NCBI GenBank assembly: GCA_002127295.1
Contig: NFUV01000001.1
Span: 1,798,001-1,862,000, forward strand
DNA length: 64,000 nt
Direction of reading: 5' to 3'
Origin: Chitinophagaceae bacterium IBVUCB2
Lineage (GTDB): Bacteria > Bacteroidota > Bacteroidia > Chitinophagales > Chitinophagaceae
In this document: one piece after another, positions 1 to 17,790 of the stretch
Layout of the letters: each line of letters opens with the position of its first letter
How positions within the stretch are numbered: position 1 is the stretch's first letter
Translations under genes and position numbers: made by a program
The notes under the pieces: model-generated
What the model was told of the DNA's origin: nothing
The model's input: only the letters and a program-made list of their open reading frames with translations
Databases searched by the model: none

Positions 1-2
1 GT

Positions 3-767
3 GATGCAGAAATGGAATTGGCTGATGAAGCCAGAACCTTAATCGAGGCCATAAAAGCATTTGATTATCTAACCGATGACGATGGTATTTTCTGTATTCC
101 ATCTGTTAATGCAGAAGAAGCAGGTGCAGATAGATTTAGGTCTTATTTGCAGCAGGTCTTTGCTGGCGAATGGAACAATCAAACCATTACACAACTCTTA
201 GCCAAAGAAGGGGCAACTTCATCCAATCTGGAGGATTGGCTTCGCAAAGAATTTTTTATTCAGCATTGCAAACTGTTTCAAAACCGCCCTTTCATCTGGC
301 ATATTTGGGATGGCCGCAATGATGGTTTTTCTGCCCTGGTCAACTACCATAAATTAAATAAAGAGAATTTATCAAAACTCATTTACACATACCTTGGCGA
401 TTGGATACGTATGTGCGAAGCCAAAAAGAAAGCCGGTGAAAGCGGAGCAGAAGGTTTGCTAAGTTCCGCACAAAAACTCAAAGAAAATTTAGAAGCAATT
501 CTGGAGGGTGAAGCACCTTACGACATTTTTGTTCGGTGGAAACCTTTAGAGCAGCAGCCCATCGGTTGGGAACCTGATTTGAATGATGGGGTACGCTTAA
601 ATATTCGTCCGTTTATTGAAGCGGATATACTTCGTAAAAAGCCTAACATCAAATGGGGTGTTGATAGAGGGAAGAATCCTCCTGGTACATATTGGGGAGA
701 AGTGAGAGATAATGATAAACACCTTAGTCTGAAAGAAAAAATTGCATCAAGAGAAAATAAAACTTAA
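3..767 (+). CDS. pglX: BREX adenine-specific DNA methyltransferase PglX, C-terminal part (partial)
   Basis: The reading frame is open to the left edge of the window, so this is the 3' end of a longer gene and the ATG at 12 is internal. The C-terminal text resembles type 1 BREX PglX, for example the stretch around FIWHIWDGRNDGFSALVNYH, the NDGVRLNIRPF segment and the closing HLSLKEK motif. PglX methylates a non-palindromic host site at adenine N6, so BREX can tell self from phage DNA. The catalytic NPPY-type motif would lie outside the window. It is followed after 9 bp by mcrB and then by pglZ and brxL, which supports the call. I identify it from family resemblance and context only. Confidence 0.85.
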   Translation, partial: DAEMELADEARTLIEAIKAFDYLTDDDGIFCIPSVNAEEAGADRFRSYLQQVFAGEWNNQTITQLLAKEGATSSNLEDWLRKEFFIQHCKLFQNRPFIWHIWDGRNDGFSALVNYHKLNKENLSKLIYTYLGDWIRMCEAKKKAGESGAEGLLSSAQKLKENLEAILEGEAPYDIFVRWKPLEQQPIGWEPDLNDGVRLNIRPFIEADILRKKPNIKWGVDRGKNPPGTYWGEVRDNDKHLSLKEKIASRENKT

Positions 768-776
768 TAGGTAAAA

Positions 777-3419
777 ATGGCATATATATATTCATGGATA
801 CCGGCTTATCAACAAATTGTAGCAAGGTTGCCTCAGTATAGAAATAACCAAGCAGCTTTAGTCCAGGTTTTAAGAGACATTGGTGTAAATGTTAATGAGG
901 ATGAAGACCACCCTGGTCATAATGTTCCATTAACTGAAATTGATCCATTTACTTTTTTATTTTTTCTGGGTAAACACAGAAACGACTGGAATAAAATTAA
1001 AGTATTGCGGCAATTGTGTCAATTATGGAATATTAATACAACAGTGTATGATGTTTGTGGTATTCCGGGTGCAAATGCACAAAGATTATGGTTATTTACT
1101 TGGCAGCATGCAAGGAATAATGAAATTAGTAAGCTTTGGGATTTGTTTGATAAGTTATTGGCAAACACAATTGCGGATGCTGATTTTGAAGAGGCTATAG
1201 GATTTCCGGCAGTTGGTAGAACAAAATTAACGGAAGCTTTTTTCATAGTTAAGCCAACTGATTATTTATGTATCAATGGAAAAGTTAAGCCTTATTTAAA
1301 TTCGAAAGGTATAAATACTGATTTTACAACATACACTCAATATCAATCATTATTGCAACGAATTAGAGATGCTATTCCAGAACCTTTTTACAAGACTTCA
1401 TTTCAATCTCATTTATTTGCTGAATATGAAAATCATGTTCCAAATTATTATAGAATAGGCACTACTGCGGGTGAAAATGGACAAACTGTATTGCCCGAAA
1501 TGTTAGCTAATAATTTAGTATCAATTGGATGGGAAGAAATTGGCGATTTAAATGAAATTGATCCATTTAATCGCAAGCATGTTAGTGAAGCTTTGAAAGG
1601 GATGGGATATTATACAAATAATAATAACATAGCATCAAGAAAAGCCGGTGAAATAATTCAATTTAAAAATGAAATTAAACCAGGTGACTATGTTTTGGCA
1701 GCAGAAGGTCAAACAATAAGAGCAATTGGGTTAGTGATAAGCCCCCATTATGTTTTTGATGCAGACTTGGATTTCCCTCATGGCAGATGCGTAAACTGGC
1801 TTTATCAAAACATAAACGACTTGCAAATAGAAGAAGGGCTGCGTACCTCAGTATGGAAATTTATAGAACCTGTAAGCATTAACATAATAAATGCTTATTT
1901 AGGTAACAATGACGAAAATGAAATGGACAATAATGAAGTTCAACCAAATAATAATATCATTGATATGGCATTAAATACAATATTATATGGTCCTCCTGGT
2001 ACTGGAAAAACATATAGTACAATTGACAAGGCTCTTGAAATATTAAATGAAGATATTCAGCTTCCCCGTGAAATCAGGAAGCAAGTTTTTGCTGAATATC
2101 AAAAGCAAGGACGAATTTATTTTACCACATTTCATCAAAACATGGCTTATGAAGATTTTATTGAAGGTATTAAGCCTATATCACCAAACGAAGATGATGA
2201 ATTTTTAAAGTATGAAATTCAGGATGGGTTATTTATGAGAGCATGTGTGGAGGCTACATATAGCTATCTGCAAACTGAAAACCTGAATAATAATGTAATT
2301 GCAAATTACCTGGATTTTAATTCATTATTTGATGCGTTGTATGATAGAATTTCAGCGGCGGGTTCGGAACAACTAACTACACGTTCTGAGGTTCAAGTTA
2401 CAGCTACTATTACCTCACAAGGAAACTTTGCAATTAGGCATGGAGGCGGACGAGAAAAACCATACACTGTGTCACGGGATAGATTATCTGTTCTCTTTGA
2501 ACAATTTCCCAATCCCGACGAAATAAATAATATAACGAATGAGTTTAGGCAGGTAATTGGGGGCTGCAATTCTACGGCTTATTGGAGTGTTTTAAAAGCA
2601 ATAGCAAATTTGAGAGATGAACAAGCTGGTGATGAAATTCAACCACAACAAGTTGCTGAGCGTAACTTGTCTTATGAAGAGAAAAAAATAATTGTAAAAA
2701 AATATTGGGAAACCCGGGATATCAATCTTATTACAAATAAGAAATTAGAGTCTTTTGTTTTTATCATTGATGAAATTAACCGGGGTAATGTTTCTCAAAT
2801 ATTTGGAGAACTTATAACTTTAATAGAGGATGACAAAAGATTAGGGAAGCCTGAGGTTTTGCATGTAGATTTACCTTATTCAAAGCACCCATTTGCGGTA
2901 CCCCCCAATTTATATATTATTGGAACTATGAATACAGCCGATCGTAGTGTGGAAGCCTTAGATACTGCATTGAGAAGAAGATTTATTTTTGAGCCAAAGA
3001 TGCCAAAGCCTGATGAATTATTAAATGTGGCAGGACCGGTTAATTTGCAAACATTACTTACCACAATCAATAATCGTTTAACTATTTTAAAAGATTCAGA
3101 CCATACGATCGGCCATGCTTGGCTTTGGGAAGTCGACAGTATAGATAAATTAAAGGCGGTGTTCGCAAACAAAATACTACCATTACTTCAAGAGTATTTT
3201 TATAATGATTATGAAAAACTTGGATTAGTTCTTGGCGATGCATTTTTTGAATTGCCACACAAACGAGTTGCGGGTAATGAATTTGCTTTGTTCACTGGCA
3301 GCAGTGGCCTCTCCGGACAATACAGAAACAAATACATTTATAAATTAAAAAATGCAGAAGATTTGGGAGAAGCAGAATTTTTAACCTTAACTCAAGCTGC
3401 TGTCGTAGATGAGGATTAA
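777..3419 (+). CDS. mcrB: McrB-type GTP-dependent restriction motor with EVE-like N-terminal region
   Basis: Residues about 400-830 form an AAA+ NTPase of the McrB family: Walker A GPPGTGKT at 405-412, Walker B FIIDEINRG near 663, and the McrB signature MNTADRS near 717. McrB hydrolyses GTP and translocates DNA, partnering McrC to cut modified DNA. At 880 residues it is about twice the length of E. coli McrB. The extra N-terminus has an unassigned module (1-210) and a segment at about 223-375 that looks like an EVE/PUA-type base-reading domain (GWEEIGDL..., GDYVLAAEGQ, RCVNWLYQ). Its end overlaps mcrC by 11 bp. It sits inside a BREX operon between pglX and pglZ. The NTPase call is firm; the EVE-like assignment is by pattern. 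Confidence 0.9.
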   Translation: MAYIYSWIPAYQQIVARLPQYRNNQAALVQVLRDIGVNVNEDEDHPGHNVPLTEIDPFTFLFFLGKHRNDWNKIKVLRQLCQLWNINTTVYDVCGIPGANAQRLWLFTWQHARNNEISKLWDLFDKLLANTIADADFEEAIGFPAVGRTKLTEAFFIVKPTDYLCINGKVKPYLNSKGINTDFTTYTQYQSLLQRIRDAIPEPFYKTSFQSHLFAEYENHVPNYYRIGTTAGENGQTVLPEMLANNLVSIGWEEIGDLNEIDPFNRKHVSEALKGMGYYTNNNNIASRKAGEIIQFKNEIKPGDYVLAAEGQTIRAIGLVISPHYVFDADLDFPHGRCVNWLYQNINDLQIEEGLRTSVWKFIEPVSINIINAYLGNNDENEMDNNEVQPNNNIIDMALNTILYGPPGTGKTYSTIDKALEILNEDIQLPREIRKQVFAEYQKQGRIYFTTFHQNMAYEDFIEGIKPISPNEDDEFLKYEIQDGLFMRACVEATYSYLQTENLNNNVIANYLDFNSLFDALYDRISAAGSEQLTTRSEVQVTATITSQGNFAIRHGGGREKPYTVSRDRLSVLFEQFPNPDEINNITNEFRQVIGGCNSTAYWSVLKAIANLRDEQAGDEIQPQQVAERNLSYEEKKIIVKKYWETRDINLITNKKLESFVFIIDEINRGNVSQIFGELITLIEDDKRLGKPEVLHVDLPYSKHPFAVPPNLYIIGTMNTADRSVEALDTALRRRFIFEPKMPKPDELLNVAGPVNLQTLLTTINNRLTILKDSDHTIGHAWLWEVDSIDKLKAVFANKILPLLQEYFYNDYEKLGLVLGDAFFELPHKRVAGNEFALFTGSSGLSGQYRNKYIYKLKNAEDLGEAEFLTLTQAAVVDED

Positions 3420-4719
3420 TAAACCCATACAGGTATTTGAATATGATTTTCTTGGTATTGGATGTCAGGGGTTTGAAACTGCACATTGGGAAGCCTTGGG
3501 AAAATATAATGATGATCATGGAGGGAACTTTTTTAAGCTATCCTACAATGGGGTAAAGTTCCAGCAATTTGTAGGGGTTATTCAGGTTGGAAATATAACT
3601 ATTGAAATTTTGCCAAAAATTGGGAAAGAGGCGGACCCAACCGGAAACAAAGATGAGTGGCAACAGGTATTGATAGATATGCTACAAGAATGTAACTGGA
3701 TGAAAGTATATGCTCACCAAAAAGCATCCTTACAATTTAAGCATAACAGCATATTAGAAGCCTATTTAGAGTTGTTCATAAAAGAATGTGAATCACTTTT
3801 ACACAAGGGATTGATAAAAAAATACCGGTTTGAAGACGGGAATTGTACCTCTCTTAAAGGGAAGCTTTTATTTGGACAAAATATACAGTATAATTTAGTC
3901 CATAAAGAGCGTTTTTATACCCGGCACCAGGTTTATGACAGGGATAATATTTTTAACCAATTATTGTTAAAAGCGCTTAAAATAATTCCATTGATTAGCC
4001 AAAGTCCTTTATTGAAGGACAGGGTTCATAGTTTACTTCTTTCTTTTCCAGAATTAAATGATCCTCAGGTAAATGAAGCAACTTTTAGCAAATTAGTATT
4101 TGACAGAAAAACATCATCCTATCGGGAGGCTATTGAAATAGCTGCAATGTTATTGCTTAATTACAGACCCGATTTAAGTTCAGGTCAAAATCAGGTATTG
4201 GCAATACTTTTCGACATGAATGATTTGTGGGAAGAATATATCTATCGCCAAATACAAAGGCACAATACCCACAATTGGAAAATCGAACCTCAGGAAGAAA
4301 AATACTTTTGGAATCAAGCCAATACAACCCGAAAGAAAAGTATTAAGCCTGACATTGTAATCAGTTCAAATGGAAGAGCAATTATTGTTGATACAAAATG
4401 GAAATTGCCAGAAGATAATATTCCTTCAGATAATGATTTAAAACAGATGTTTGTTTACAACGAGTATTGGGACGGAATAACCGCAATCCTGTTATATCCT
4501 CACACAATCTTTAAAGAAGAGCCAGTTTTTGTGAACGGGGTATTTCATTCAATACCTTATTTAAATTCATATTCCAGAAATGTATCCGGTATCTCAGAAC
4601 CTATTGAGATGCATGCTTGCGGCGTTATGAAAATATCGGTTTTGAATGAGGGAAAAATACTTGATGAAAACATAGGCAAAAAAATAAACGATTATTTTCT
4701 ACATGAAATATTTATATGA
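3409..4719 (+). CDS. mcrC: McrC-family nuclease subunit
   Basis: This 436-residue protein matches McrC, the nuclease partner of McrB. A PD-(D/E)xK active site is visible near residues 312-333: KPDIVISS, then IIVDTKWK (Asp and the Asp-x-Lys pair). The N-terminal half is the DUF2357-like McrC adaptor that docks on the McrB hexamer. The start overlaps the mcrB stop by 11 bp and the stop overlaps the pglZ ATG as ATGA, so translation of all three is probably coupled. It should cleave DNA once McrB has loaded on a modified site; the modification recognised cannot be read from sequence. Confidence 0.88.
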   Translation: MRINKPIQVFEYDFLGIGCQGFETAHWEALGKYNDDHGGNFFKLSYNGVKFQQFVGVIQVGNITIEILPKIGKEADPTGNKDEWQQVLIDMLQECNWMKVYAHQKASLQFKHNSILEAYLELFIKECESLLHKGLIKKYRFEDGNCTSLKGKLLFGQNIQYNLVHKERFYTRHQVYDRDNIFNQLLLKALKIIPLISQSPLLKDRVHSLLLSFPELNDPQVNEATFSKLVFDRKTSSYREAIEIAAMLLLNYRPDLSSGQNQVLAILFDMNDLWEEYIYRQIQRHNTHNWKIEPQEEKYFWNQANTTRKKSIKPDIVISSNGRAIIVDTKWKLPEDNIPSDNDLKQMFVYNEYWDGITAILLYPHTIFKEEPVFVNGVFHSIPYLNSYSRNVSGISEPIEMHACGVMKISVLNEGKILDENIGKKINDYFLHEIFI

Positions 4720-7031
4720 GTCAAAGCATATACGATAAAGTTATACATACTTTAAAACAGGCAGAAAACCATAACAGTAATTTGATGGTGAAGCCAGAAG
4801 TAATTCTTTGGCCAGATCCTGAAAACCAATGGGTGGATGTGATGGATGTATTACAGGAAAACATGCCACAGTTGCTAACTTATGGCAGCTATAACCCGAC
4901 AAAGAAACAAGGCCCGGCTATTTGGTTAAAATGCATGATTGCAAAAATGTTACCGGAAGCAGATTGGGAAGCAGATGCTATTCCTATTATTTATCTCCCA
5001 GGTGTTGCAAAAAATGATTTACGAAACGTAGAGAATGCAGTTTTTAATTTTCAACCACTTTTAGAGTACCAATACACCGGCACTTTATTCATACAGGAAA
5101 ATGGAAGAGAATGGAGCATCTTGGCATTTGTTGAAAATCCTATCAGTGGTTTGGGAATTAAAGTGGCAAAAGACAATGCCACAAAAGACGCTTTAAAAAA
5201 GACACTCCCAACTATTTTTCAAGACCGTGAGGTACTTGCACACAAGTCCATAATAGACTCAGATTATCTGAACAATCAACTTTTTCCAGACATCATACCA
5301 ACGATTCTTAAATGGATGTGTAAGGGCGATGCTTTTTTTCAAAGCATGGAAGCTGGCAAGCGAGATGTATTTACCAACCTGTGCAAATCGCAATACGAAT
5401 TTGAACCCGATCATAGAAACATTAAAGCCATTGCCGAAAAATTGGGGGCACAAAAAAGTTCGTGGAAATATGTTTGGCAATTATATGCCACTGCTCCAAA
5501 TAAATATCTTGAGATAGAGGCCCTGCTTCGTTTATCAAAACCTGCCGATTTAGGTACAGGCATTTTTGCATTGCCAGATGAAAGCTGGCCGCAGGTAAAT
5601 GAACAGAAAGAAGAGGCGCTGGCTCAGGCATTGGTTAAAGTAGCTAAGTTAGATACTGTAAAATCATTAGCATCTCTGAACGAATTAGAAAAAATACACA
5701 GTGTAAGAAAATCCTGGGTTTGGTTTGAATTAGGTAAATCTCCATTGGCAGATGCCCTGCACTATATAGTTCAAATGGCAACCAAGGCTACAGAGCCATA
5801 TTCATCGGCTTCAATTGAAAGCCTTAAATCTTATTATATAACAAGTGGCTATGCAGTTGACCAGAACATGCGAAAATCTTTAGCTGCTGTTAAAACTCAG
5901 AAGGATAAAACAATTGTAAAATCTATCATACAGCTTTTTTATCAGCCCTGGCTTGAAACCATTACTAATAAATTTCAAAAACAAGTAGAAGCGGATGCAG
6001 CTATTTTTACTTCACAAACTGCAAATGTTGAAACCGAATCATTTGTATTGTTTGTTGATGCATTTCGTTATGAGTTAGCCCAGGAATTTAGTGAGCGGTT
6101 AGCAAAATACAAACTAAATGTATCAATGCAAACAGGCTGGTCCGCCATTCCATCTTTAACGCCAACAGCAAAGCCAGCTATATCTCCAATTGCATCGGCT
6201 GTTTCAACAAACAGCAATATTACTGAGTTCAGGCCGCAATTAAAGAATGGGAAAGACCTGCTCACCAATGTATTTCGGGATGCTTTAAAAGCAAACGACT
6301 TTAAGCTGGTGACAAATGCAAATGATATTCAAAGCGAAGAAAAATATTGGCAGGAAATAGGTGATATAGATACCAAAGGCCACGAAGAACAAGGGGACAT
6401 GGTAAAACGCATAGAGGAATTATTTGATCAGGTACATGAGGCTTTAGATGTTGCTTTTGAAAGAGGAATTAAACGAATTAAAATTGTAACAGATCATGGG
6501 TGGTTGCTGCTGCCGGGCGGCTTGCCTAAAACACAACTCAATGCAGGGTTAACAGAAACTCGTTGGGGTCGCTGTGCTCTTATAAAGGAAGGTGCAACTA
6601 CAGATTTGCTGCATCTGCCCTGGCGTTGGAACCCTTCCATTTTTATTGCTTATGCTCCCGGTATTTCCTTTTTCAAAGCAAATGAAGAATATGCTCACGG
6701 TGGTATTTCATTGCATGAATGTTTAGTGCCAACAATGATTATTGAAAACCCAAATGTGCTGCAAATTGAAGCAGAAGTGAAAGTGGTGAAGTGGGTCAAC
6801 CTGAAATGTACCATTCAAACAAGCGATGTACCGGATGGCTACAGCATTGATATCCGAACCAAATACAACGATGCCAAAACATCCATTGTATTATCAAAAA
6901 GCAAAACGCTGAGAGGAAATACAATTACTCTAATGGTGGATGATTCGGCAGAACACCAGGCTGCCACAATAGTATTAATGGATGCAACAGAAAGAATATT
7001 GGACAAAAAACCAACCACTGTAGGTGGTTAA
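4716..7031 (+). CDS. pglZ: BREX phosphatase-like protein PglZ (type B)
   Basis: The 771-residue product carries the PglZ alkaline-phosphatase-superfamily domain: the VDAFRYE motif with Asp448, the TDHGW motif with Asp593 and His594, and a downstream HGG motif near residue 670, which together form a metal site. Its length and motifs fit the PglZ type B branch of BREX-1 systems. PglZ is the hallmark BREX protein and is essential for phage exclusion, though its substrate is not established. The ATG overlaps the mcrC stop (ATGA), so the McrBC pair is part of the same operon rather than a chance neighbour. Confidence 0.92.
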   Translation: MSQSIYDKVIHTLKQAENHNSNLMVKPEVILWPDPENQWVDVMDVLQENMPQLLTYGSYNPTKKQGPAIWLKCMIAKMLPEADWEADAIPIIYLPGVAKNDLRNVENAVFNFQPLLEYQYTGTLFIQENGREWSILAFVENPISGLGIKVAKDNATKDALKKTLPTIFQDREVLAHKSIIDSDYLNNQLFPDIIPTILKWMCKGDAFFQSMEAGKRDVFTNLCKSQYEFEPDHRNIKAIAEKLGAQKSSWKYVWQLYATAPNKYLEIEALLRLSKPADLGTGIFALPDESWPQVNEQKEEALAQALVKVAKLDTVKSLASLNELEKIHSVRKSWVWFELGKSPLADALHYIVQMATKATEPYSSASIESLKSYYITSGYAVDQNMRKSLAAVKTQKDKTIVKSIIQLFYQPWLETITNKFQKQVEADAAIFTSQTANVETESFVLFVDAFRYELAQEFSERLAKYKLNVSMQTGWSAIPSLTPTAKPAISPIASAVSTNSNITEFRPQLKNGKDLLTNVFRDALKANDFKLVTNANDIQSEEKYWQEIGDIDTKGHEEQGDMVKRIEELFDQVHEALDVAFERGIKRIKIVTDHGWLLLPGGLPKTQLNAGLTETRWGRCALIKEGATTDLLHLPWRWNPSIFIAYAPGISFFKANEEYAHGGISLHECLVPTMIIENPNVLQIEAEVKVVKWVNLKCTIQTSDVPDGYSIDIRTKYNDAKTSIVLSKSKTLRGNTITLMVDDSAEHQAATIVLMDATERILDKKPTTVGG

Positions 7032-7043
7032 AAAATATAGTGT

Positions 7044-9089
7044 ATGGAATTAGATAAATTAGACCAATTAGCTGCAAAAGCCTTTGAAGGTTACATAGTG
7101 CGGAAAGATTTGCTGGAGCAGTTCCGCAAAACTTATCCTGTACCAACTTATGTAATAGAATTTCTTTTGGGAAGATATTGTGCCACCACCAATGAAGCAG
7201 AAATACAAGAAGGTTTGGAAATTGTAAAACGGCAATTACAAGATCGAACAGTAAGGCCAGGTGAAGAAGAGTATTTTAAATCTAAAGCTGAAAAAGAAGG
7301 GAAAGTAAAATTAATAGATATTATAACAGCAAAGTTAGATGCTGATTCGGGAAATTACCTCGCAAACCTGCCGAGCCTTCGGTTAAACAAAGTAAGAATA
7401 CCCTCAGAAGTTGTTTATGCAAATGATAGAATGCTTACCGGTGGTTTTTATGCAGAGATTGAATTGGAATATGATGCAGCCATAGCACAAGAAAATAATG
7501 GCCGTCCATTTGGCATTAGCAATATTCGGCCTATCCAATTATCGCAAAGGGATGTCTTAGAAATTTTATACAAAGGGAGAGAGAATTTTACTTTAGAAGA
7601 GTGGAAAGATTTTTTAATCCGAAGCGTAGGAATGGAGCCTTCCAGTTTATCTGAAAAGGCAAAGAATGTACTTTTTGCAAGAATGATTCCTTTTGTAGAA
7701 CGTAATTATAATTTAATTGAGTTAGGTCCAAGAGGAACAGGTAAATCGCATTTGTATCAGCAAATCTCACCATACTCCCATTTGGTTTCAGGTGGTAAAG
7801 CAACGGTAGCCAAAATGTTTGTAAACATGGGCAGCGGAGAAAGAGGACTTGTTTGCAAATATGATGTAGTTTGTTTTGATGAAGTATCCGGTGTTTCCTT
7901 CGATCAGAAAGATGGTGTAAATATTATGAAGGGCTACATGGAAAGTGGAGAGTTCAGCCGGGGAAAAGAACCAATAAGGGCAGATGGCGGAATAGTAATG
8001 GTGGGCAACTTTGATGTGGATATAGAACATCAACAGCGCATCAGTCATTTGTTTGGTCCAATGCCAAAAGAGATGAGAGACGATACCGCCTTTATGGATC
8101 GTATCCATTCGTTTGCTCCGGGTTGGGATTTTCCCAAACTAAACAAAACCTATTTCACAAATCACTTCGGATTAGTAAGTGATTTTCTTGCAGAATGCTG
8201 GACAAGGCTCAGAGACACAAGCCGTATATCTTCAGTACTTCCTCGTATAGATTATGGAGGTGCTTTAAGTGGTAGAGATACAACTGCTGTAAATAAAACA
8301 CTAAATGGTTTATTGAAATTAATGCAGCCAAATCCTGAAGCACCGATTTCGGACGACCTGCTTGAATGGGCAATAAAAATTTCATTGGAATACCGAAGAA
8401 GAGTAAAAGAACAACAAAAACGAATTGGTTCCGCAGAATTTAGAAATACTCATTTCAGTTATCGGATCGGTGAAGATGGTGTGGAAACATTTGTTACTAC
8501 ACCTGAGATACACAGCGAAAATACCATCAGCGAAGATCCCTTGCCTCCGGGTCAAATATGGGCATTGAATGCAGGGGGGCAGGAAGAAACTACAGGGCTA
8601 TACAAAATTGAAATTAATTCAGCACCTGGTTCCGGTGTCAAAATATTAAATAAACCTGCACCTCCCCAGTTTCAGGAAAGTGTAAGGTATGCAGAACAAA
8701 ATTTGTATAGTAAATGCAGAGAACTTATTGGCGATAGAGAAGCCCGGTTAAATGAATTTTCCATTCAGCTAAGGGCATTTGATGCTTCCAAAAGTGGCAA
8801 TGGAATGGGCATGGCTGTTTTGATGGGCATGTGTAGTGCAGTGCTTGAAAAAAATACCAAAGGTGGTCTTGTCATTGTTGGCCAGTTGAATTTGGGCGGC
8901 TCATTGGATATGGTTTACAATGCGGTAAATCTTGCGGAGATAGCTGTTGAAAAAGGAGCAACTACATTGCTTATTCCATTGAATGCAAGGAAGCAATTGA
9001 ATGAACTATCGGATGAAATGATTACAAAAATAAATATTCAGTATTATACAGATTTGAAAGATTGCTTGATAAAAGCTCTTTTGGATTAA
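7044..9089 (+). CDS. brxL: BREX Lon-like AAA+ protein BrxL
   Basis: The 681-residue protein has an AAA+ core with Walker A GPRGTGKS at about 228-235 and Walker B CFDEVSGVSF near 276, followed by a Lon-protease-like C-terminal domain (about 575-680). BrxL is the last gene of type 1 BREX operons and forms DNA-binding rings needed for phage exclusion. In the Lon-like part the catalytic serine motif DGPSAG is replaced by SGNGMG and the GGLKEK lysine motif by GGSLDM, so peptidase activity is unlikely. It starts 12 bp after pglZ and ends before a strong hairpin, closing the operon. Confidence 0.93.
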   Translation: MELDKLDQLAAKAFEGYIVRKDLLEQFRKTYPVPTYVIEFLLGRYCATTNEAEIQEGLEIVKRQLQDRTVRPGEEEYFKSKAEKEGKVKLIDIITAKLDADSGNYLANLPSLRLNKVRIPSEVVYANDRMLTGGFYAEIELEYDAAIAQENNGRPFGISNIRPIQLSQRDVLEILYKGRENFTLEEWKDFLIRSVGMEPSSLSEKAKNVLFARMIPFVERNYNLIELGPRGTGKSHLYQQISPYSHLVSGGKATVAKMFVNMGSGERGLVCKYDVVCFDEVSGVSFDQKDGVNIMKGYMESGEFSRGKEPIRADGGIVMVGNFDVDIEHQQRISHLFGPMPKEMRDDTAFMDRIHSFAPGWDFPKLNKTYFTNHFGLVSDFLAECWTRLRDTSRISSVLPRIDYGGALSGRDTTAVNKTLNGLLKLMQPNPEAPISDDLLEWAIKISLEYRRRVKEQQKRIGSAEFRNTHFSYRIGEDGVETFVTTPEIHSENTISEDPLPPGQIWALNAGGQEETTGLYKIEINSAPGSGVKILNKPAPPQFQESVRYAEQNLYSKCRELIGDREARLNEFSIQLRAFDASKSGNGMGMAVLMGMCSAVLEKNTKGGLVIVGQLNLGGSLDMVYNAVNLAEIAVEKGATTLLIPLNARKQLNELSDEMITKINIQYYTDLKDCLIKALLD

Positions 9090-9191: not shown

Positions 9192-10436
9192 TTAAAAATT
9201 TCGTAAAAGTTCTCCTATTTCTTTTTTTCTTTCATCCTCAAAAGAATCCAGATAGCTCTCAGTAGTTTTAAGACTTGTATGCCCTAAAGATTCACTTATA
9301 AGCAATGGGCTGATACCTTTTTTCTTCAGTACTGTTGCAAAGCTATGTCTGGCAAAATAGGTTGTCACCTTTTTATCAATACCAGTCTCTTCCGCAATTT
9401 TGAACAGGTACTTATTGACCATTTGTGTGAATTGCTGTACTGTCGCCATTTCCTTTGTAGGCGTCAATCCTGCGTGAAGGACCGGGAAAATAAAATTATC
9501 AGGACTCTTTTCCTTATTCCCAAACCGGTCTATAATTGCCACTAACTCATTGGTAAGATGAAACGATATCTGAGTACTGTTAGACCGATTGGTAAGAAAT
9601 GTTTTAGCCCTTGTAAATCGAACATAATCACCATGAATATTTTCATATTTAAGTCTGAGTATATCTTTTATATTCATACCATTCGCAAAATAACTGAATA
9701 CAAACATATCTCTTGCTCTCTCATACCATGTACCTGGTACTGCCTCAAAGTGTACAATCTTTCCTATCTCTGACAGCGTAAGAGCCTTTTTAATATTGCG
9801 TGAGGATGGAATTTGGTACCTTCTTTTACCAAAAGGATACTGATCCCTTGAAATTTCTCCTTCTTCAATAACCTGATTCAAAATTGCTCGCAAGGGACGT
9901 AGGTATATACCTACTGTTGTTGGGGACCGTTTTTGTGCCAATAACCAGTTTTCATAATCCCGAAGAAATTCAACGGTAATATTTCTTAATAACAATTTCG
10001 GAGAAAACTTCTTTAAACTATTCATACTGGTGTTATAATTACTTGCAGTTCCAACTCTGGCTTCCTGCTTCATTTTTTTGATGGTGTTATCATAGTATAG
10101 ATAAACACTATCAGAAGAATGTTGGCCAATTAAAAACTTCTTTTCAAATGCCTTGAAGTCGAATACCGGCATCTTTCTAATTATTTCATTGGCCTTAACT
10201 ACATTACTATCACATTGGATTTTTGTCTCTTGTAGCTTTCTCCTTTCTTTTACAGACAGTTCTTTAGTTTTTGAATTGGATTGCATCAACTCAAATTCCT
10301 CAGCGGTTAAATCAAATCCTGTTGAATAGTATTTCTGTTCCTTCAGAAATGTGATGCGTAACTTGATTGGGTACCCACCAGATTTTTTCTTGCGGCGGGT
10401 ATCTAAATGGGTAACTATGGTGGGATTTATTTGCAT
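9192..10436 (-). CDS. Tyrosine recombinase/integrase of the defence island
   Basis: The 414-residue protein is a Bacteroidota-type phage integrase: an N-terminal arm-binding domain (about 1-100), a SAM-like core-binding domain (about 110-210) and a C-terminal catalytic domain. Visible catalytic positions are Arg363 in the ARHSFAT motif, His386 in GHTSLKTTESY and the nucleophile Tyr395. The first catalytic Arg region reads GMNIKDILRLK, a variant I recall from other Bacteroidota integrases. It is transcribed away from a tRNA-Asn 3' fragment 140 bp upstream, the usual layout for an element integrated in a tRNA gene. It probably integrated, and may still excise, the island that carries BREX-McrBC. 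Confidence 0.9.
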   Translation of the reverse strand: MQINPTIVTHLDTRRKKKSGGYPIKLRITFLKEQKYYSTGFDLTAEEFELMQSNSKTKELSVKERRKLQETKIQCDSNVVKANEIIRKMPVFDFKAFEKKFLIGQHSSDSVYLYYDNTIKKMKQEARVGTASNYNTSMNSLKKFSPKLLLRNITVEFLRDYENWLLAQKRSPTTVGIYLRPLRAILNQVIEEGEISRDQYPFGKRRYQIPSSRNIKKALTLSEIGKIVHFEAVPGTWYERARDMFVFSYFANGMNIKDILRLKYENIHGDYVRFTRAKTFLTNRSNSTQISFHLTNELVAIIDRFGNKEKSPDNFIFPVLHAGLTPTKEMATVQQFTQMVNKYLFKIAEETGIDKKVTTYFARHSFATVLKKKGISPLLISESLGHTSLKTTESYLDSFEDERKKEIGELLRNF

Positions 10437-12264: not shown

Positions 12265-12675
12265 TTATAAAGAATCAGCTATTTTCTTATCAATATATTT
12301 TCTGCCTGCTGCTACTTCCCTGATAGCAGTAATAATTTCGGCATAAGGAGAGCTTTTGCTCATATAACCTTTGGCACCTAGCCGCATCAGATTTTTACAA
12401 TAGGAGGCTTCTGTATGCAGTGAAAGCCCAATTATTTTTATAGCAGGAAATTGTTTCAGGATCTTTCGGGTGGCTTCAAAACCATTAACCGGCGACATGT
12501 TAATGTCCATTAATATTATGTCAGGCCGTAATTCTGCAGCCAGCGTAATCGCCTCCTCTCCATTGCGGGCTTCACCGACTAATTGCAGATCTTCAAAGGG
12601 ATTAATAAGTATACTAAGACCTTCCCGCATATAGGAATTATCATCAGCAATAAGAATAGAGACCTGGGTAGGCAT
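12265..12675 (-). CDS. Response regulator receiver without output domain (NarL-like)
   Basis: From the ATG at 12675 the product is 136 residues: MPTQVSILIADDN, the phospho-acceptor Asp in LMDINMSP, and the Lys of YMSKSSP, which is a complete receiver domain. It resembles NarL-type regulators but stops at KKIADSL, where such proteins would continue into a LuxR-type helix-turn-helix. Downstream DNA in the same frame shows no helix-turn-helix, so the gene is a natural single-domain receiver or an old truncation. An upstream in-frame extension to 12756 lacks receiver features and was not used. It lies 194 bp after a full-length NarL-type regulator. Confidence 0.8.
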   Translation of the reverse strand: MPTQVSILIADDNSYMREGLSILINPFEDLQLVGEARNGEEAITLAAELRPDIILMDINMSPVNGFEATRKILKQFPAIKIIGLSLHTEASYCKNLMRLGAKGYMSKSSPYAEIITAIREVAAGRKYIDKKIADSL

Positions 12676-12810
12676 AGATAAAGCGATTCTTCGCAATTCA
12701 CCGCCACTGCCAGGAGAGTTAAAATAATATTGTAGGGTTAGGATATTGATAGGCAAAAATACCTATCCATAAGAATGTAGTATAAAATCAGCTGCCAAAT
12801 TTCATTTAAT

Positions 12811-12824
12811 TACGTAGTTACTAC
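12811..12824. promoter_or_regulatory. Palindromic GTAGT-T-ACTAC element upstream of the receiver gene
   Basis: TACGTAGTTACTAC contains the 5-1-5 inverted repeat GTAGT-T-ACTAC (12814-12824). It lies in the 194-bp gap upstream of the receiver gene that starts at 12675. Related elements occur at 17855, 18129 and 19236, so it may be an operator of the local NarL-type regulator. This is inference. Confidence 0.4.
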
Positions 12825-12869
12825 TATGCTTTTTGATGGGTACAAATGCAGGTTTGTGCAACAATCGCA

Positions 12870-13511
12870 TTAAAGCGAAAGATCGGTTTTATTTATAAAA
12901 GTAATCAGGGAGGCGGTATTTTTCAATCCTAACTTTTTAAGGATATTATGTCGATGTACTTCAGCTGTGCGAACAGATATTCCTAAGCTGGTAGCAATTT
13001 CCTTAGATGATAATCCTTCTTTAATGAGTTTGATGATCTCAATTTCCCGGAGCGATAATTCTTTTAAACTGGGTCCCGACGGCGACTGTTGAAAAGCTTG
13101 TTCTGAAATAATATCTTTTATTTCTGAACAAACAAATGTTTTACCCGCCATCACCTCATCTACAGCATCAATCATTTCCTGGTGAGAAGAGTTTTTGGTA
13201 ACATACCCTTTAGCTCCCATCTGCAGCATTTTTTTAGCATAAGCCGGTTGATTGTGCATTGAAACTGCAATGATCTTAGTGCCAGGTGAAAATTTCCGTA
13301 TCAATGGCACTGCATCCATTCCCGATGAAACAGGTAAATTTATATCAAGCAAAACAATATTAGGTCGCTTAACTTTTATCATTTCAATGGCCTCATCAAA
13401 ATCACCACTTTTACCAACAATTTCTATATCGTTTCTTTCTGAAAACAATTGCACCCACATTTCCCTTACCAATTGGTGATCTTCTACAATAACAACAGAA
13501 ATTTTACCCAT
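12870..13511 (-). CDS. NarL/FixJ-family response regulator (REC + LuxR HTH)
   Basis: The 213-residue protein has an N-terminal receiver (about 4-120; acidic EDH pocket, Asp in LLDINLP, Lys in YVTKNSS) and a C-terminal LuxR-type helix-turn-helix (about 145-208; LSLREIEIIKLIKEGLSSKE, then RTAEVHRHNILKKL). It should be phosphorylated by the adjacent HisKA_3 kinase and bind inverted-repeat DNA. It follows the kinase gene after only 12 bp, so the two are a cognate operon pair. Intergenic palindromes in this cluster are candidate targets. Confidence 0.93.
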   Translation of the reverse strand: MGKISVVIVEDHQLVREMWVQLFSERNDIEIVGKSGDFDEAIEMIKVKRPNIVLLDINLPVSSGMDAVPLIRKFSPGTKIIAVSMHNQPAYAKKMLQMGAKGYVTKNSSHQEMIDAVDEVMAGKTFVCSEIKDIISEQAFQQSPSGPSLKELSLREIEIIKLIKEGLSSKEIATSLGISVRTAEVHRHNILKKLGLKNTASLITFINKTDLSL

Positions 13512-13523
13512 ACAATTTGTTTT

Positions 13524-14963
13524 TTACAATGGAATGCTTATTTGTATCCTACATCCTTGTCCCGGCGCTGTGCTGATTTTCATTGTCCCGGAATAAAAAT
13601 CTACCCGGCTACTGATATTCTTTAATCCTATTCCCTGGGCCCTGGTTGCCAAATCAAAACCCACTCCATTATCAACGATTGAGAACATTATACTATCGCT
13701 TGAAGTTTTTAATGCAATTATGGCTTTACTGGCTTTTGAATACTTCCTGATATTATTTAACTGCTCCTGTGCTATACGATAGAACATTAACTCCATATTT
13801 TTATCTATTGTATATTTATCATCCAACTGGTTGATAAACTCTACTTCTGTTTTTTTAGCAAGATTCATTTCTTCCACTAACTCTTGCAAAGCCTCTGCCA
13901 ATCCAATATCCCCCAGCGACGGTGCTACCAGCGACTTGGATAATTTCCTTATCTCTTCAATTGCGTAATTTACATTATGAAGACTTTTGTCTATCAGCTC
14001 TTTCCTGGAACCTTCTCTTTCTAGTGATAAACCAAGAAACATTTTAATAGTGGCAAGTACCTGGTTAATGTTATCATGCAGTTCCTTTCCTAATTCATTT
14101 CGTTGCTTTTCCTGTGCCTGGATAGTTACTTCTGTAATTAATTTTTGCTGGGTAAGTTCCTTCTTTGCAAGTTCATTTTCAAGTTTTCTTTTTTCAGTAA
14201 TATCCGTCATCGCACCAATCATCCTTTCGGCAACCCCTTTCTCATTATACAAAATATATCCCCGGTCATATACATCTTTATAAGATCCGTCTGCACAACA
14301 AAAACGAAATTCATCCTGCCAATGTTGTCTCCTGGATTTAATGTGTTCATTCAATCTTGTACGAACTCTTTCTCTGTCTTCGGGATGAATGTATTTACGC
14401 ATCCACTCATTGCTATAATTCAATTCAGCATCAGTATATCCAAAAGTAGTTACAATCCCCTCTCCCCACATACCGGAATTAGTATTAAACCACCATTCCC
14501 AAATCGTATCCAGTGTCGCTTTGTTTACAAATTCATACCGGTCATTGCTTTGCCGCAATTTTTCCACCATCCTTTTACGCTCTATACTATAATGAACAAT
14601 TTTACCCAGCAATTTTTCATCAAACTCTCCTTTTACAAGATAATCCTGTGCCCCTAATGAAATCGCTTCCATCGCAACCTCAACATCGGACAAGCCAGAA
14701 AAAACAACAATAGGAGTTTGAGGCAGCAGACGGTTAAGTGTAATAACTGAATCAATACCTGAACTGTCCGGTAATGAAAGATCAAGCAGGGCGATATCAA
14801 AATTATTTTCTTTAATCAGATTGGTGGCACTGGCCATACTATCGGCATGAATGGTTTTGCCTGGTGGTAAATTACTCATTTGCAAATACTCTTTCACCAA
14901 AGCATAATCGCCTGGATTATCTTCTACTACCAGCATATTCAATATTTTATTCTCCAATCTCAT
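13524..14963 (-). CDS. Hybrid receiver-PAS-histidine kinase (NarX/DegS type)
   Basis: The ATG at 14963 is preferred because it overlaps the previous stop as ATGA; a longer start at 15002 is possible. Order of domains: receiver (Asp in ALLDLSLPD), PAS fold with PAC end (about 145-265; HWQDEFRFCCADGSY), a short coiled coil, HisKA_3 (EKQRNELGKELHDNINQVL with the phospho-His in LHDN) and a HATPase_c domain ending near residue 478 (DNGVGFD, GIGLKNISSRV). There is no membrane segment, so it is cytosolic. The N-terminal receiver suggests it is driven by the upstream kinase, and it should phosphorylate the NarL-type regulator encoded next. Confidence 0.92.
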   Translation of the reverse strand: MRLENKILNMLVVEDNPGDYALVKEYLQMSNLPPGKTIHADSMASATNLIKENNFDIALLDLSLPDSSGIDSVITLNRLLPQTPIVVFSGLSDVEVAMEAISLGAQDYLVKGEFDEKLLGKIVHYSIERKRMVEKLRQSNDRYEFVNKATLDTIWEWWFNTNSGMWGEGIVTTFGYTDAELNYSNEWMRKYIHPEDRERVRTRLNEHIKSRRQHWQDEFRFCCADGSYKDVYDRGYILYNEKGVAERMIGAMTDITEKRKLENELAKKELTQQKLITEVTIQAQEKQRNELGKELHDNINQVLATIKMFLGLSLEREGSRKELIDKSLHNVNYAIEEIRKLSKSLVAPSLGDIGLAEALQELVEEMNLAKKTEVEFINQLDDKYTIDKNMELMFYRIAQEQLNNIRKYSKASKAIIALKTSSDSIMFSIVDNGVGFDLATRAQGIGLKNISSRVDFYSGTMKISTAPGQGCRIQISIPL

Positions 14964-15400
14964 GTATGATTTTTTTTGGGTAACTGTACTATGCTTATCC
15001 AAAAATCTTTAAGTGTATGAATTACTTCAATAAAACTTTGAAAACCTACTGGTTTAGTTATGTAACAGTTTGCATGATTATTATAAGATTCGAAAATATC
15101 TTTTTCGGAATCAGACGTTGTCAGCATTACTACTGGAATTATTCTCAGGATTTCATCTTTTTTTATATTAGACAACACTTCCTTACCGTCAATTTTCGGA
15201 AGATTAATGTCTAACAAAATAAGATCAGGGGTAACGGAGTTCCTAAACTCTGCTTCCTTGTTGAGGTATTGCATTGCCTGTTCTCCATCCCTTACTACAT
15301 CAATGGTGTTATTAACCCTGGCTTCCTTTAAAGCCTCTAATGTTAAAACAATATCCCCTTCATTATCCTCAATGAGTAATATGTGAATTTCTCTTGTCAT
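14960..15400 (-). CDS. Single-domain response regulator (Rcp1/CheY-like)
   Basis: The 146-residue product is a lone receiver: the IEDNEGD acidic pocket, Asp in LILLDINLPK, and the Lys of CYITKPVG. It belongs to the Rcp1-type receivers that often pair with phytochrome-like kinases. Its start overlaps the upstream kinase stop and its stop overlaps the next kinase start, both as ATGA. It could carry phosphate from the CHASE3-like kinase to the receiver-PAS-kinase encoded next; that route is inference. Confidence 0.92.
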   Translation of the reverse strand: MTREIHILLIEDNEGDIVLTLEALKEARVNNTIDVVRDGEQAMQYLNKEAEFRNSVTPDLILLDINLPKIDGKEVLSNIKKDEILRIIPVVMLTTSDSEKDIFESYNNHANCYITKPVGFQSFIEVIHTLKDFWISIVQLPKKNHT

Positions 15401-17790
15401 GCTTTATTTTTGGGAATGGTAAAATAAAAGGTAGCTCCTTTGTCGATTGCGGATTCAATTCGTATAGTGCCGCCGTGCTTCTCTATGATTTTCTTACAGA
15501 TAGCTAACCCAATACCCGTGCCAGCATACTCTGTTCTATTATGTAATCGTTGAAAAATAATAAAGACCTTATCAAAGAATTTTGGATCGATGCCTATGCC
15601 ATTATCTTTTACATAAAACTCCCAGTGCAGCTCTTTATCTGTACAACCCACTTCTATTACCGGTGGTGCGTCGCTATGATATTTGAGTGCATTGCCAACC
15701 AGATTTTGAAAAAGCTGTTGTATTTGAGGTTGCACTGCTTTTATTACAGGCAATTTTTTTACTTGTATTGTCGCATTTGTTTCTTGAATAGAAAGAGATA
15801 AGATAGTTTGTACCGTATTCATTACTTCATTACAATCAACCGTGGTTATACTTTCTTTGCTGGTACCCACACGGGAATATTGGAGCAGGTCCTGTATCAA
15901 CCGCTTCATTCGTTCTGCACCATCTACTGCAAACTTGATATACTCTTTATTTGAATCATCTAATTTTCCTTCCAGTTTCTTTTCAAGCAAATGAAGAAAG
16001 CTGCTTACCATACGCAAGGGTTCCTGTAAATCATGTGATGCTACATAAGCAAATCGTTCCAGTTCAGTATTTGAAGTTTGTAATTCGACAGCTCTTCTCT
16101 CCAGTACCTTGTATAATTCGCTTAGTAGTATTTCTGATTTTTTACGATGCGTAATATCCATTGACAAAATAAAAATTCCTTCGGGGACTGGTTGAAAACT
16201 CAGATCAAACCAGCCTACTGACCCATCCGGAAAGACAAATTCATTCTCGAGGTGAATGGGTAACCGTTCGGCAAAACATTTTTCATATACTTTAAATATG
16301 TCAGCCGATTCTATTCCTGGAAATTTTTCCATTACCGTATGATTGAGCAATTCCTCCCGCCGGTATTTACTATGTTTAAGAAATGCGTCATTCACATATT
16401 TATACTTCCAATCGAAGCCTATGATCTGAGCTCCCTCCATCAGGTTGTCTAATATATAACGAAAGTGCAGCTCACTTTTCAGTAATTCTGCAGTTTTTTG
16501 CTCTACCTTTTTTTCCAGGTTCTCATTCAGTGATATTATTTCTTTTTCTGCCCGGTTCCTGTACCGGGTATGATTGTAAATAATAATAAAAGCAATAAGC
16601 AGCAACAAAGCAGTAAGTACCTGAAATAGAGTTATAATCCTTGACGACCCCACAATACTTAGTTCATTTTCCGACTTGCGTTTGCCAAGCAATTCCATTT
16701 CCTTCGCTTCAATAGCTGCTATTAGTTCAAACAATTCATTCATTTTAGTTTTGGCAGCTCCAGTTTCAAAAAATTCTTCAGCATCTGCAAAACCTCCGGT
16801 TCGTCTTAATTCAATTATATGTCTTCTCAGTTCTATATTGCTCTTAACTAAACCTTCTAATGAATCTATGCGAACCTGTTGTTCTGGATTATCCTTAGTT
16901 GTTTCCCGAAGTTGCTGCACGGCGGGCTGAATGCTGATCACTGCATTATTGAATGGCTTAAGAAAACTTTCTTTGCCTGAGATAATAAATTCGGCCGTTC
17001 CTGTTTCAATCGACTGCGCTAAATTCCGGATCTGCTGGCTATGTGCTACTGCTGTATTTGTATGATCAACCCATTTTGCAGTATCCACAAAACGGTTAGC
17101 ACTTAAACGAAATGCCAAAAAAGCTACCGTTAACAGCAGAATTGCAAAGAAGAAAAAAGCTCCCATTTTTTTTTGGAAAGAAAACTTGCGATAGCTAAGG
17201 GGAGAACTAAATAAAGCACCTGTGTACAATAGCAATAATGCAAGACTGGTATACAATGAGGATGGACTGACTAATGAAAATCTTTCGCTGTTGGTACGGG
17301 TGAGATAAATAAGAAAAATCAATGACAGAAGAACAAACCCTATAATAATGAAAACCTGGACAAACAAATGCAAGCTTCTTTTCCTTAAAAAAAGCATACA
17401 AATACTAAACAGGGTAAAAATAGAAGCTGTAAGTACTGCCATTCTTCCAGGAAACAAAGTACCCGGTACTGGGTTTGTATCTTTCCACAGGAACTGGTCA
17501 ACTCCAAAATCTGTATTAAAAATATATTGTCCCAGCGTAAGTAGAGTAATCAGAAAAACTATGAACGAACAGATAGTAGCGATGAGTTGACCTGCTTTGC
17601 CAGGCTTTTGCCGATCTAATACAAATAAAGCAATAGCAGAAAGCAGTATACAGAGACCAGTATTGAACTTAACTGGAAGAGAAATAGTTATGTCTTGGTC
17701 ACCAAAAATCCAGGAACCCAATACCAGTATTGCTATTAATATTGTGAGTATAGCTGCAACCTTTGTTATATGCCGGGTAGTTCCGTTCAT
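15397..17790 (-). CDS. Membrane sensor histidine kinase (CHASE3-like + PAS)
   Basis: The 797-residue kinase starts with about seven hydrophobic segments (residues 10-225), then a helical extracytoplasmic region resembling CHASE3 (about 230-370), another membrane helix (about 385-405), a coiled coil, a PAS domain (about 445-555), HisKA with the H-box FAYVASHDLQEPLRM (His near 585) and HATPase_c (DNGIGIDPKF, GTGIGLAICKKIIEKHGG). It is the first gene of the cluster and is likely its sensor. The phytochrome-type HisKA matches the Rcp1-like receiver encoded directly downstream. The signal it senses cannot be told from the sequence. Confidence 0.92.
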   Translation of the reverse strand: MNGTTRHITKVAAILTILIAILVLGSWIFGDQDITISLPVKFNTGLCILLSAIALFVLDRQKPGKAGQLIATICSFIVFLITLLTLGQYIFNTDFGVDQFLWKDTNPVPGTLFPGRMAVLTASIFTLFSICMLFLRKRSLHLFVQVFIIIGFVLLSLIFLIYLTRTNSERFSLVSPSSLYTSLALLLLYTGALFSSPLSYRKFSFQKKMGAFFFFAILLLTVAFLAFRLSANRFVDTAKWVDHTNTAVAHSQQIRNLAQSIETGTAEFIISGKESFLKPFNNAVISIQPAVQQLRETTKDNPEQQVRIDSLEGLVKSNIELRRHIIELRRTGGFADAEEFFETGAAKTKMNELFELIAAIEAKEMELLGKRKSENELSIVGSSRIITLFQVLTALLLLIAFIIIYNHTRYRNRAEKEIISLNENLEKKVEQKTAELLKSELHFRYILDNLMEGAQIIGFDWKYKYVNDAFLKHSKYRREELLNHTVMEKFPGIESADIFKVYEKCFAERLPIHLENEFVFPDGSVGWFDLSFQPVPEGIFILSMDITHRKKSEILLSELYKVLERRAVELQTSNTELERFAYVASHDLQEPLRMVSSFLHLLEKKLEGKLDDSNKEYIKFAVDGAERMKRLIQDLLQYSRVGTSKESITTVDCNEVMNTVQTILSLSIQETNATIQVKKLPVIKAVQPQIQQLFQNLVGNALKYHSDAPPVIEVGCTDKELHWEFYVKDNGIGIDPKFFDKVFIIFQRLHNRTEYAGTGIGLAICKKIIEKHGGTIRIESAIDKGATFYFTIPKNKA

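Follow-up and report, generated by a model that had tools for sequence, protein, structure and literature searches.

A McrBC module between pglX and pglZ of a type 1 BREX operon in Chitinophagaceae bacterium IBVUCB2

Why should a modification-dependent nuclease be encoded in the same operon as a DNA methyltransferase? This question is raised by a 64,000-nucleotide stretch (hereafter, the window) of Chitinophagaceae bacterium IBVUCB2 (GCA_002127295.1, contig NFUV01000001.1; G000:C1:1798001-1862000; genome of 4.0 Mb in 3 contigs). The locus is a complete type 1 bacteriophage exclusion (BREX) operon of the PglZ-B kind with the two genes of a McrBC system between pglX and pglZ. The gene order is brxA-brxB-brxC-pglX-[mcrB-mcrC]-pglZ-brxL, all genes being on the forward strand and tightly packed. 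A preliminary description of the sequence had reported the order from pglX to brxL with overlaps of 11 and 4 bp, and these coordinates were confirmed, although the window cuts into pglX and contains no more than its 3' part. The McrBC module had also been described as complete and as part of the BREX operon. The pair is indeed full, it overlaps pglZ, and brxA to brxC are found upstream. While the observation was confirmed, its interpretation is partly supported: we consider it probable that the pair would act as a co-expressed type IV arm backing BREX against phages with modified DNA.

The operon and the intactness of its genes

The features of the locus are the following (coordinates are those of the window unless another sequence is named):

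777..3419, + strand: mcrB, 880 residues; N-terminal sensor region of type A followed by an AAA+ GTPase
777..1886, + strand: McrB residues 1-370, putative sensor region of type A, common to the window and L016
1989..2012, + strand: McrB Walker A motif GPPGTGKT, residues 405-412
3409..4719, + strand: mcrC, 436 residues, PF10117; 11-bp overlap with mcrB
4348..4398, + strand: McrC nuclease motif PD-X12-DTK, residues 314-330
L003:10826-11554, + strand: brxA, upstream of the window
L003:11535-12089, + strand: brxB, upstream of the window
L003:12100-15534, + strand: brxC, upstream of the window; Walker A motif kept
1..767, + strand: pglX, last 254 codons (open reading frame 3-767); motif I DPCMGSG, motif IV NVPY
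4716..7031, + strand: pglZ, BREX-1 type B, 771 residues; its start overlaps the mcrC stop as ATGA
7044..9089, + strand: brxL, 681 residues; Walker A motif GPRGTGKS
9192..10436, - strand: tyrosine recombinase, 102 bp past brxL; possible mobility gene outside the operon

McrC matches the Pfam family McrBC (PF10117) with 215 bits, can be aligned with the McrC of structure 6ut5 (chain G) and combines a DUF2357-like region with a PD-(D/E)XK motif, whose residues D315, D328 and K330 are invariant in all 8 aligned rows. McrB matches solved McrB GTPases and contains the motifs GPPGTGKT, FIIDEINRGN and NTADRS. The NTAD of the last motif is the NxxD signature of McrB AAA+ GTPases and not the NxD signature that defines CoCoNuT systems (PMC11090510). 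No second PF10117 McrC was found in the host genome, and the C5-cytosine methylase family gave no match there (10 of 14 controls gave a signal).

All reading frames are open and every motif checked is present. Comparison with L006, the nearest relative for mcrC, gave ratios of nonsynonymous to synonymous substitution (dN/dS) of 0.066 for mcrC, 0.054 for pglZ and 0.031 for brxL, which are rough because synonymous distances of 0.9-2.1 are near saturation. The mcrC gene is under purifying selection. For mcrB, residues 690-880 give 0.14 in the comparison with L006 and residues 1-370 give 0.155 in that with L016; the whole-length value against L006 is 0.40, because the N-termini of the two proteins are different domains. 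Inactivation by mutation, against which the preliminary description had cautioned, was therefore not found.

The complete pglX (L004:534-3767) has 1,077 codons and starts at G000:C1:1795534, 2,467 bp before the window. Within the window, neighbouring genes are separated by 9 bp (pglX-mcrB), -11 bp (mcrB-mcrC), -4 bp (mcrC-pglZ) and 12 bp (pglZ-brxL). The six type 1 BREX genes are present in order and their products are recognised by PADLOC with 324 (BrxA), 242 (BrxB), 1454 (BrxC), 1426 (PglX), 938 (PglZ) and 972 bits (BrxL). The NCBIfam model BREX_PglZ_1_B scores PglZ at 798 bits (cut-off 400), and the type 1 PglX model scores PglX at 324 bits, under its cut-off of 500.

Both methyltransferase motifs of PglX, DPCMGSG and NVPY, are present. 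The solved BrxX (9ewz) has NPPY at motif IV, and a degenerate PglX was considered on these grounds and rejected: NVPY is found in 13 of 16 PglX rows of relatives and is a family trait (of the other three, L014 and L022 run off the contig and L025 has NVPF, as judged by eye). In three relatives (L007:3804-7838, L008:3595-7836 and L025:4932-8885) pglX is 1,317-1,413 codons long owing to an in-frame segment similar to REP-type transposases, which matches Y1_Tnp by Pfam in L007, appears similar by eye in the other two and is flanked by repeated SSR...LRQDGGATL-like peptides. Past the recombinase, open reading frames resembling response regulators and histidine kinases occupy 12265-17790 (- strand) of the window, as judged by eye from their translations.

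Contents of the pglX-pglZ slot and the McrC lineage

A scan of genome contigs with PglZ retrieved 21 loci besides the present one, and 19 of these carry Bacteroidota titles. The pglX-pglZ slot is at least partly visible in 17 and lies off the contig in L012, L017, L020 and L026. In keeping with the earlier suggestion that this slot accepts extra defence, and that related loci should be compared for its contents, various defence-type genes were found there. The mcrBC pair occupies it in 7 of the 17 loci (L006, L010, L013, L016, L018, L021 and L019); in L019 only mcrC is visible before the contig ends, and L010 has in addition an AlbA-type gene before mcrB. Five loci carry SLFN_AlbA_2 (AlbA/Schlafen) genes without mcrBC (L007, L008, L011, L015 and L022), accompanied by a ParA-like gene in L007 and L008. 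Elsewhere the slot holds an AbiGi-like gene (L009), a DUF1016/YhcG nuclease (L025) or an unnamed 168-aa gene (L014), and it is empty in L023 and L024. Twelve plasmid records match PglZ. Identity exceeds 60% in two of them, Haliscomenobacter hydrossis pHALHY02 and Runella sp. SP2 pSP2_1, and each carries mcrBC in the same gene order. Thus, mcrBC (mcrC only in L019) adjoins pglZ in 9 other records, in a sample obtained mainly through PglZ and biased accordingly; a position outside the operon in all relatives, which the preliminary description had allowed for, is not what they show.

Two side observations concern BREX cargo in general. The IMG/VR contigs L120 and L121, listed as viral and encoding a close PglZ, have AlbA-type genes in the slot, with a ParA-like gene as well in L120. 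A second cargo slot is apparent between brxC and pglX, where closely similar DUF1016/YhcG-type nuclease genes are located in L007:2677-3804 (by Pfam), L009:4694-5821 and L025:3805-4932 (both by eye).

In a sample of 13 more distant BREX loci with both pglX and pglZ visible (L058, L059, L060, L064-L068, L122-L124, L126 and L127), none has mcrBC in the slot. A gene for GmrSD, an unrelated type IV enzyme, is found directly before pglZ in L058:8515-10314 (- strand), L064:10170-11963 and L125:1-1872, the pglX of L125 being off the contig. Together with mcrBC in the close loci, this means that two unrelated type IV families lie directly before pglZ. Other distant slots contain AIPR (L065), DarT (L066, and L067 by annotation), Hsp70 (L127), AAA_21 proteins (L068, and L058 besides GmrSD) or DUF932 (L126, and L064 besides GmrSD), and those of L059 and L060 are empty. 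Two Deinococcus plasmids have a McrBC-like pair past brxL, on the same strand in L066 and on the opposite one in L067, and their McrC belongs to another lineage. Hsp70-family genes also appear beside or within BREX loci, at L003:7369-9564 (- strand), upstream of the operon studied here, at L061:18767-21292 (- strand) and at L127:7169-9004.

The McrC tree comprised 32 open reading frames of at least 290 aa scoring more than 45 bits in annotated loci, the weak-match loci L091-L098 being left out. The 10 BREX-embedded McrC proteins form one clade (support 100/99); as they were found through PglZ, the sample is biased towards adjacency to pglZ. The other 22 are the two from Deinococcus, 14 from stretches of 13-15 kb without a recognised BREX gene (L099-L112) and six from stretches of 3-4 kb, too short to show a BREX context (L085-L090). 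When McrC itself was used as the query, however, 296 genomes gave the gene itself and otherwise proteins at most 46% identical; plasmids gave 147 records, and among the 30 matches listed no plasmid other than the two with BREX exceeded 30%. Distances between PglZ and McrC are correlated (r 0.67 over 10 loci; 0.0006 of permutations as high), as are those between McrC and the McrB core (r 0.76, 9 loci), and the value for PglX and McrC is r 0.32 (0.07).

The junctions are also largely constant. In nine of the ten mcrBC loci, the stop of mcrC and the start of pglZ share 4 bp (ATGA); in L018 the overlap is 31 bp. The spacing of pglX and mcrB lies between -8 and 17 bp in 7 of the 9 loci showing both ends and is 147 bp in L061 and 2,166 bp in L010, where the intervening AlbA gene accounts for the gap (starts were taken by a first-start rule, so that some open reading frames are longer than annotated). 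The ParA-like cargo of L007, L008 and L120 likewise overlaps pglZ by 4 bp. With respect to a terminator and promoter of its own for mcrBC, also considered in the preliminary description, such sites are no commoner than in shuffled sequences (36 sigma-70-like sites against 43.7 expected; 8 terminator-like sites against 10.4), though promoters may be present. The Bacteroidetes-type promoter pattern occurred no more often than by chance, with none in L004 and one in L003, on the other strand and far from brxA.

Acquisition of the locus by horizontal transfer is likely. In a search of 147 genomes for relatives, only the host genome itself matched the studied PglZ, and the tyrosine recombinase gene is located 102 bp past brxL on the opposite strand. 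No near-identical copies were found on plasmids.

McrB sensors and the PglX recognition domain

While conservation among these loci covers McrC and the last part of McrB, the part of McrB preceding Walker A is of four kinds: type A in the window and L016, type B in L006, L010, L018 and L021, type C in L013 and type D in L061 and L062. The McrB of the window appears to be a mosaic, being 98% identical to that of L006 over residues 801-840 whereas, in 40-residue steps up to residue 200, it is only 5-25% identical to L006 and 50-82% to L016. Residues 1-215 of type A resemble the N-terminus of the McrB in L109, a locus in which no BREX gene was recognised, and residues 224-359 resemble the PADLOC candidate PDC-S02. 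Type A gave no Pfam match up to an E value of 1, a profile search with type B against solved structures returned nothing convincing (best E 0.087), and on viral contigs the sensor had no relative and McrC matches were at most 32% identical.

An EVE-type sensor was suspected from the pattern GDYV...IG.V.S. It was not supported in a weak test: HHalign comparison with EVE proteins scored type A at 0.4% and types B to D at no more than 0.6%, in shallow alignments for which 6 of 20 EVE loci passed the open reading frame filter. Types A and B resemble one another over residues 124-349 (92%), and types C and D matched neither.

Residues 551-750 of PglX were taken as the target-recognition domain on account of their position and variability, and were compared with the sensor types in the 8 loci with a full PglX. 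The window and L018 are 80% identical in this domain and have different sensors (A and B, respectively), while identity is 27% between the two type A loci (window and L016), 24-34% among the four type B loci and 42% between the two type D loci. Sensor types do not track the PglX domain and, therefore, PglX specificity and McrB sensor appear to have been exchanged independently. Since a sensor reading the PglX mark would make such free exchange dangerous, we infer that McrB reads a modified base other than that mark. It is thus plausible, as judged from these comparisons, that McrBC tolerates methylation by its own PglX, as the preliminary description had required.

Weighing the possible roles of the embedded module

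If McrBC backs BREX against phages with modified DNA, the whole operon would share a transcript and mcrC would be translationally coupled to pglZ. BREX would mark self DNA with N6-methyladenine and block unmarked phage DNA, the McrB N-terminus would bind DNA whose bases carry a foreign modification distinct from the PglX mark, and the GTPase ring would move on this DNA, which McrC would cut. Phages escaping BREX by base modification would then meet a second, independent enzyme, and both arms would vary on a constant chassis as the McrB sensor and the PglX recognition domain are exchanged, each on its own. We infer this division of labour, already proposed in the preliminary description, from the complete and tightly packed operon, the conserved ATGA overlap, the McrBC motifs and similarity to solved McrBC proteins, the single McrC clade, GmrSD before pglZ in three distant loci, sensors that do not track the PglX domain, the lack of a C5-cytosine methylase match in the host, and the precedent of BrxU (see below).

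Several points weigh against this reading. In the PglZ tree (28 of 31 rows scored; poorly resolved, with 9 of 28 inner branches well supported), the presence of mcrBC needs 9 changes, at least 4 of them forced by well-supported branches; shuffled labels need 8.6 on average, no worse than the 9 observed. Moreover, distances of the McrB core do not follow those of PglZ (r 0.26; 0.14). Because of both results, any tie of mcrBC to BREX is loose. The scatter makes loss or exchange likely, and the simplest account would be a single arrival in BREX, after which the cassette was lost from some BREX loci and exchanged between others. Regarding the sensor, one pair of loci alone shares a PglX recognition domain, a solved archaeal McrB, from Thermococcus, reads N6-methyladenine (PMC7641849), and the modified-base reading rests on the McrBC family, because the sensor has neither a Pfam match nor EVE support.

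The pair may instead be a passenger, harmless to BREX and sharing only its expression, in a slot that tolerates insertion and exchange; many unrelated genes, or nothing, occupy the slot, and the distribution of mcrBC resembles that of shuffled labels. We regard this as a serious possibility, a little short of an even chance, but a single McrC clade in the slot does not resemble many independent insertions, and the correlation between PglZ and McrC distances also speaks against it. The Thermococcus precedent, together with the resemblance of the McrB and McrC cores to the Thermococcus proteins, leads to another alternative, in which the sensor would recognise N6-methyladenine in a foreign context and attack the marks of other hosts, the PglX motif being spared by its sequence. 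This is unlikely, because the 8 loci compared show sensor types in free combination with PglX recognition domains, which would risk self-cutting. PglZ is itself a nuclease according to published work, and McrB or McrC might work with BREX proteins, for example by handing DNA to PglZ, so that the McrB sensor would be a second entry into BREX. The constant place beside pglZ, the overlap with this gene and the dedicated McrC lineage fit such an integrated arm, but McrC keeps its own nuclease motif in all 8 rows, BREX of the same family presumably works without mcrBC, to judge by L023, L024 and similar intact loci, and McrB core distances are not in step with those of PglZ; such an arm appears quite improbable. 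That the pair is an inactive remnant is extremely improbable: the whole-length dN/dS of mcrB would be its only sign and is explained by the non-matching N-termini, against open frames, intact motifs and the low, albeit rough, values of mcrC and of the homologous mcrB segments (0.14-0.16). A bolder form of the preferred reading, in which a BREX-dedicated McrBC chassis would be a semi-permanent arm of BREX in Bacteroidota, its sensor exchanged independently of the PglX domain so as to give two separately reprogrammable recognition modules (for unmarked and for modified DNA), possibly sharing BREX parts, is doubtful.

Type IV enzymes inside BREX operons are already known. In the pEFER plasmid, a type 1 BREX operon likewise encodes such an enzyme, BrxU, which provides complementary protection and leaves the N6-methyladenine of BREX untouched; it differs in that BrxU is one protein of the GmrSD family encoded between brxC and pglX, instead of the two-gene McrBC between pglX and pglZ (PMC8565348). 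In Salmonella StySA, extra genes dispensable for modification do occupy the pglX-pglZ slot, but they encode an ATPase and a DUF4435 protein, unrelated to McrBC, and the insert is reported to share with pglZ at least one transcript that is separate from brxA-pglX (PMC9009780). Therefore, of the examples invoked in the preliminary description, that of Salmonella holds for this slot and that of BrxU does not. A 2026 survey of BREX and related loci, spanning at least 4363 taxa, reports auxiliary nucleases, among which PD-(D/E)XK (the commonest) and GmrSD recur within BREX operons; in the text available, its main part contains no word beginning with "mcr", and sensor exchange in embedded McrBC was not met (PMC12839542).

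The McrBC systems of E. coli and Thermococcus gammatolerans share with the present one the NxxD GTPase, the variable N-terminal sensor and the PD-(D/E)XK McrC (PMC11090510, PMC7641849); here, the sensor was not matched to DUF3578, EVE or YTH and the lineage was found in one BREX slot. A census of McrBC notes methyltransferase-associated branches, to be treated separately, includes PglX-like methyltransferases in the key of a figure and places BREX in superoperons with CoCoNuTs (PMC11090510). BREX and type IV restriction are reported to be the commonest pairing in defence islands (PMC9122601). In the literature searched, mostly outside subscription journals, no description was found of McrBC between pglX and pglZ or of the sensor exchange seen here.

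Joint defence by BREX and a type IV enzyme is thus established for BrxU. In the present operon it is another type IV family, unrelated to that of BrxU, whose genes overlap pglZ, and one McrC lineage with differing sensors occurs across several families of Bacteroidota and on two plasmids. These loci form a natural series in which to ask what phage modifications drive the exchange of sensors, as well as a case for how a modification-dependent nuclease coexists with a resident DNA methyltransferase.

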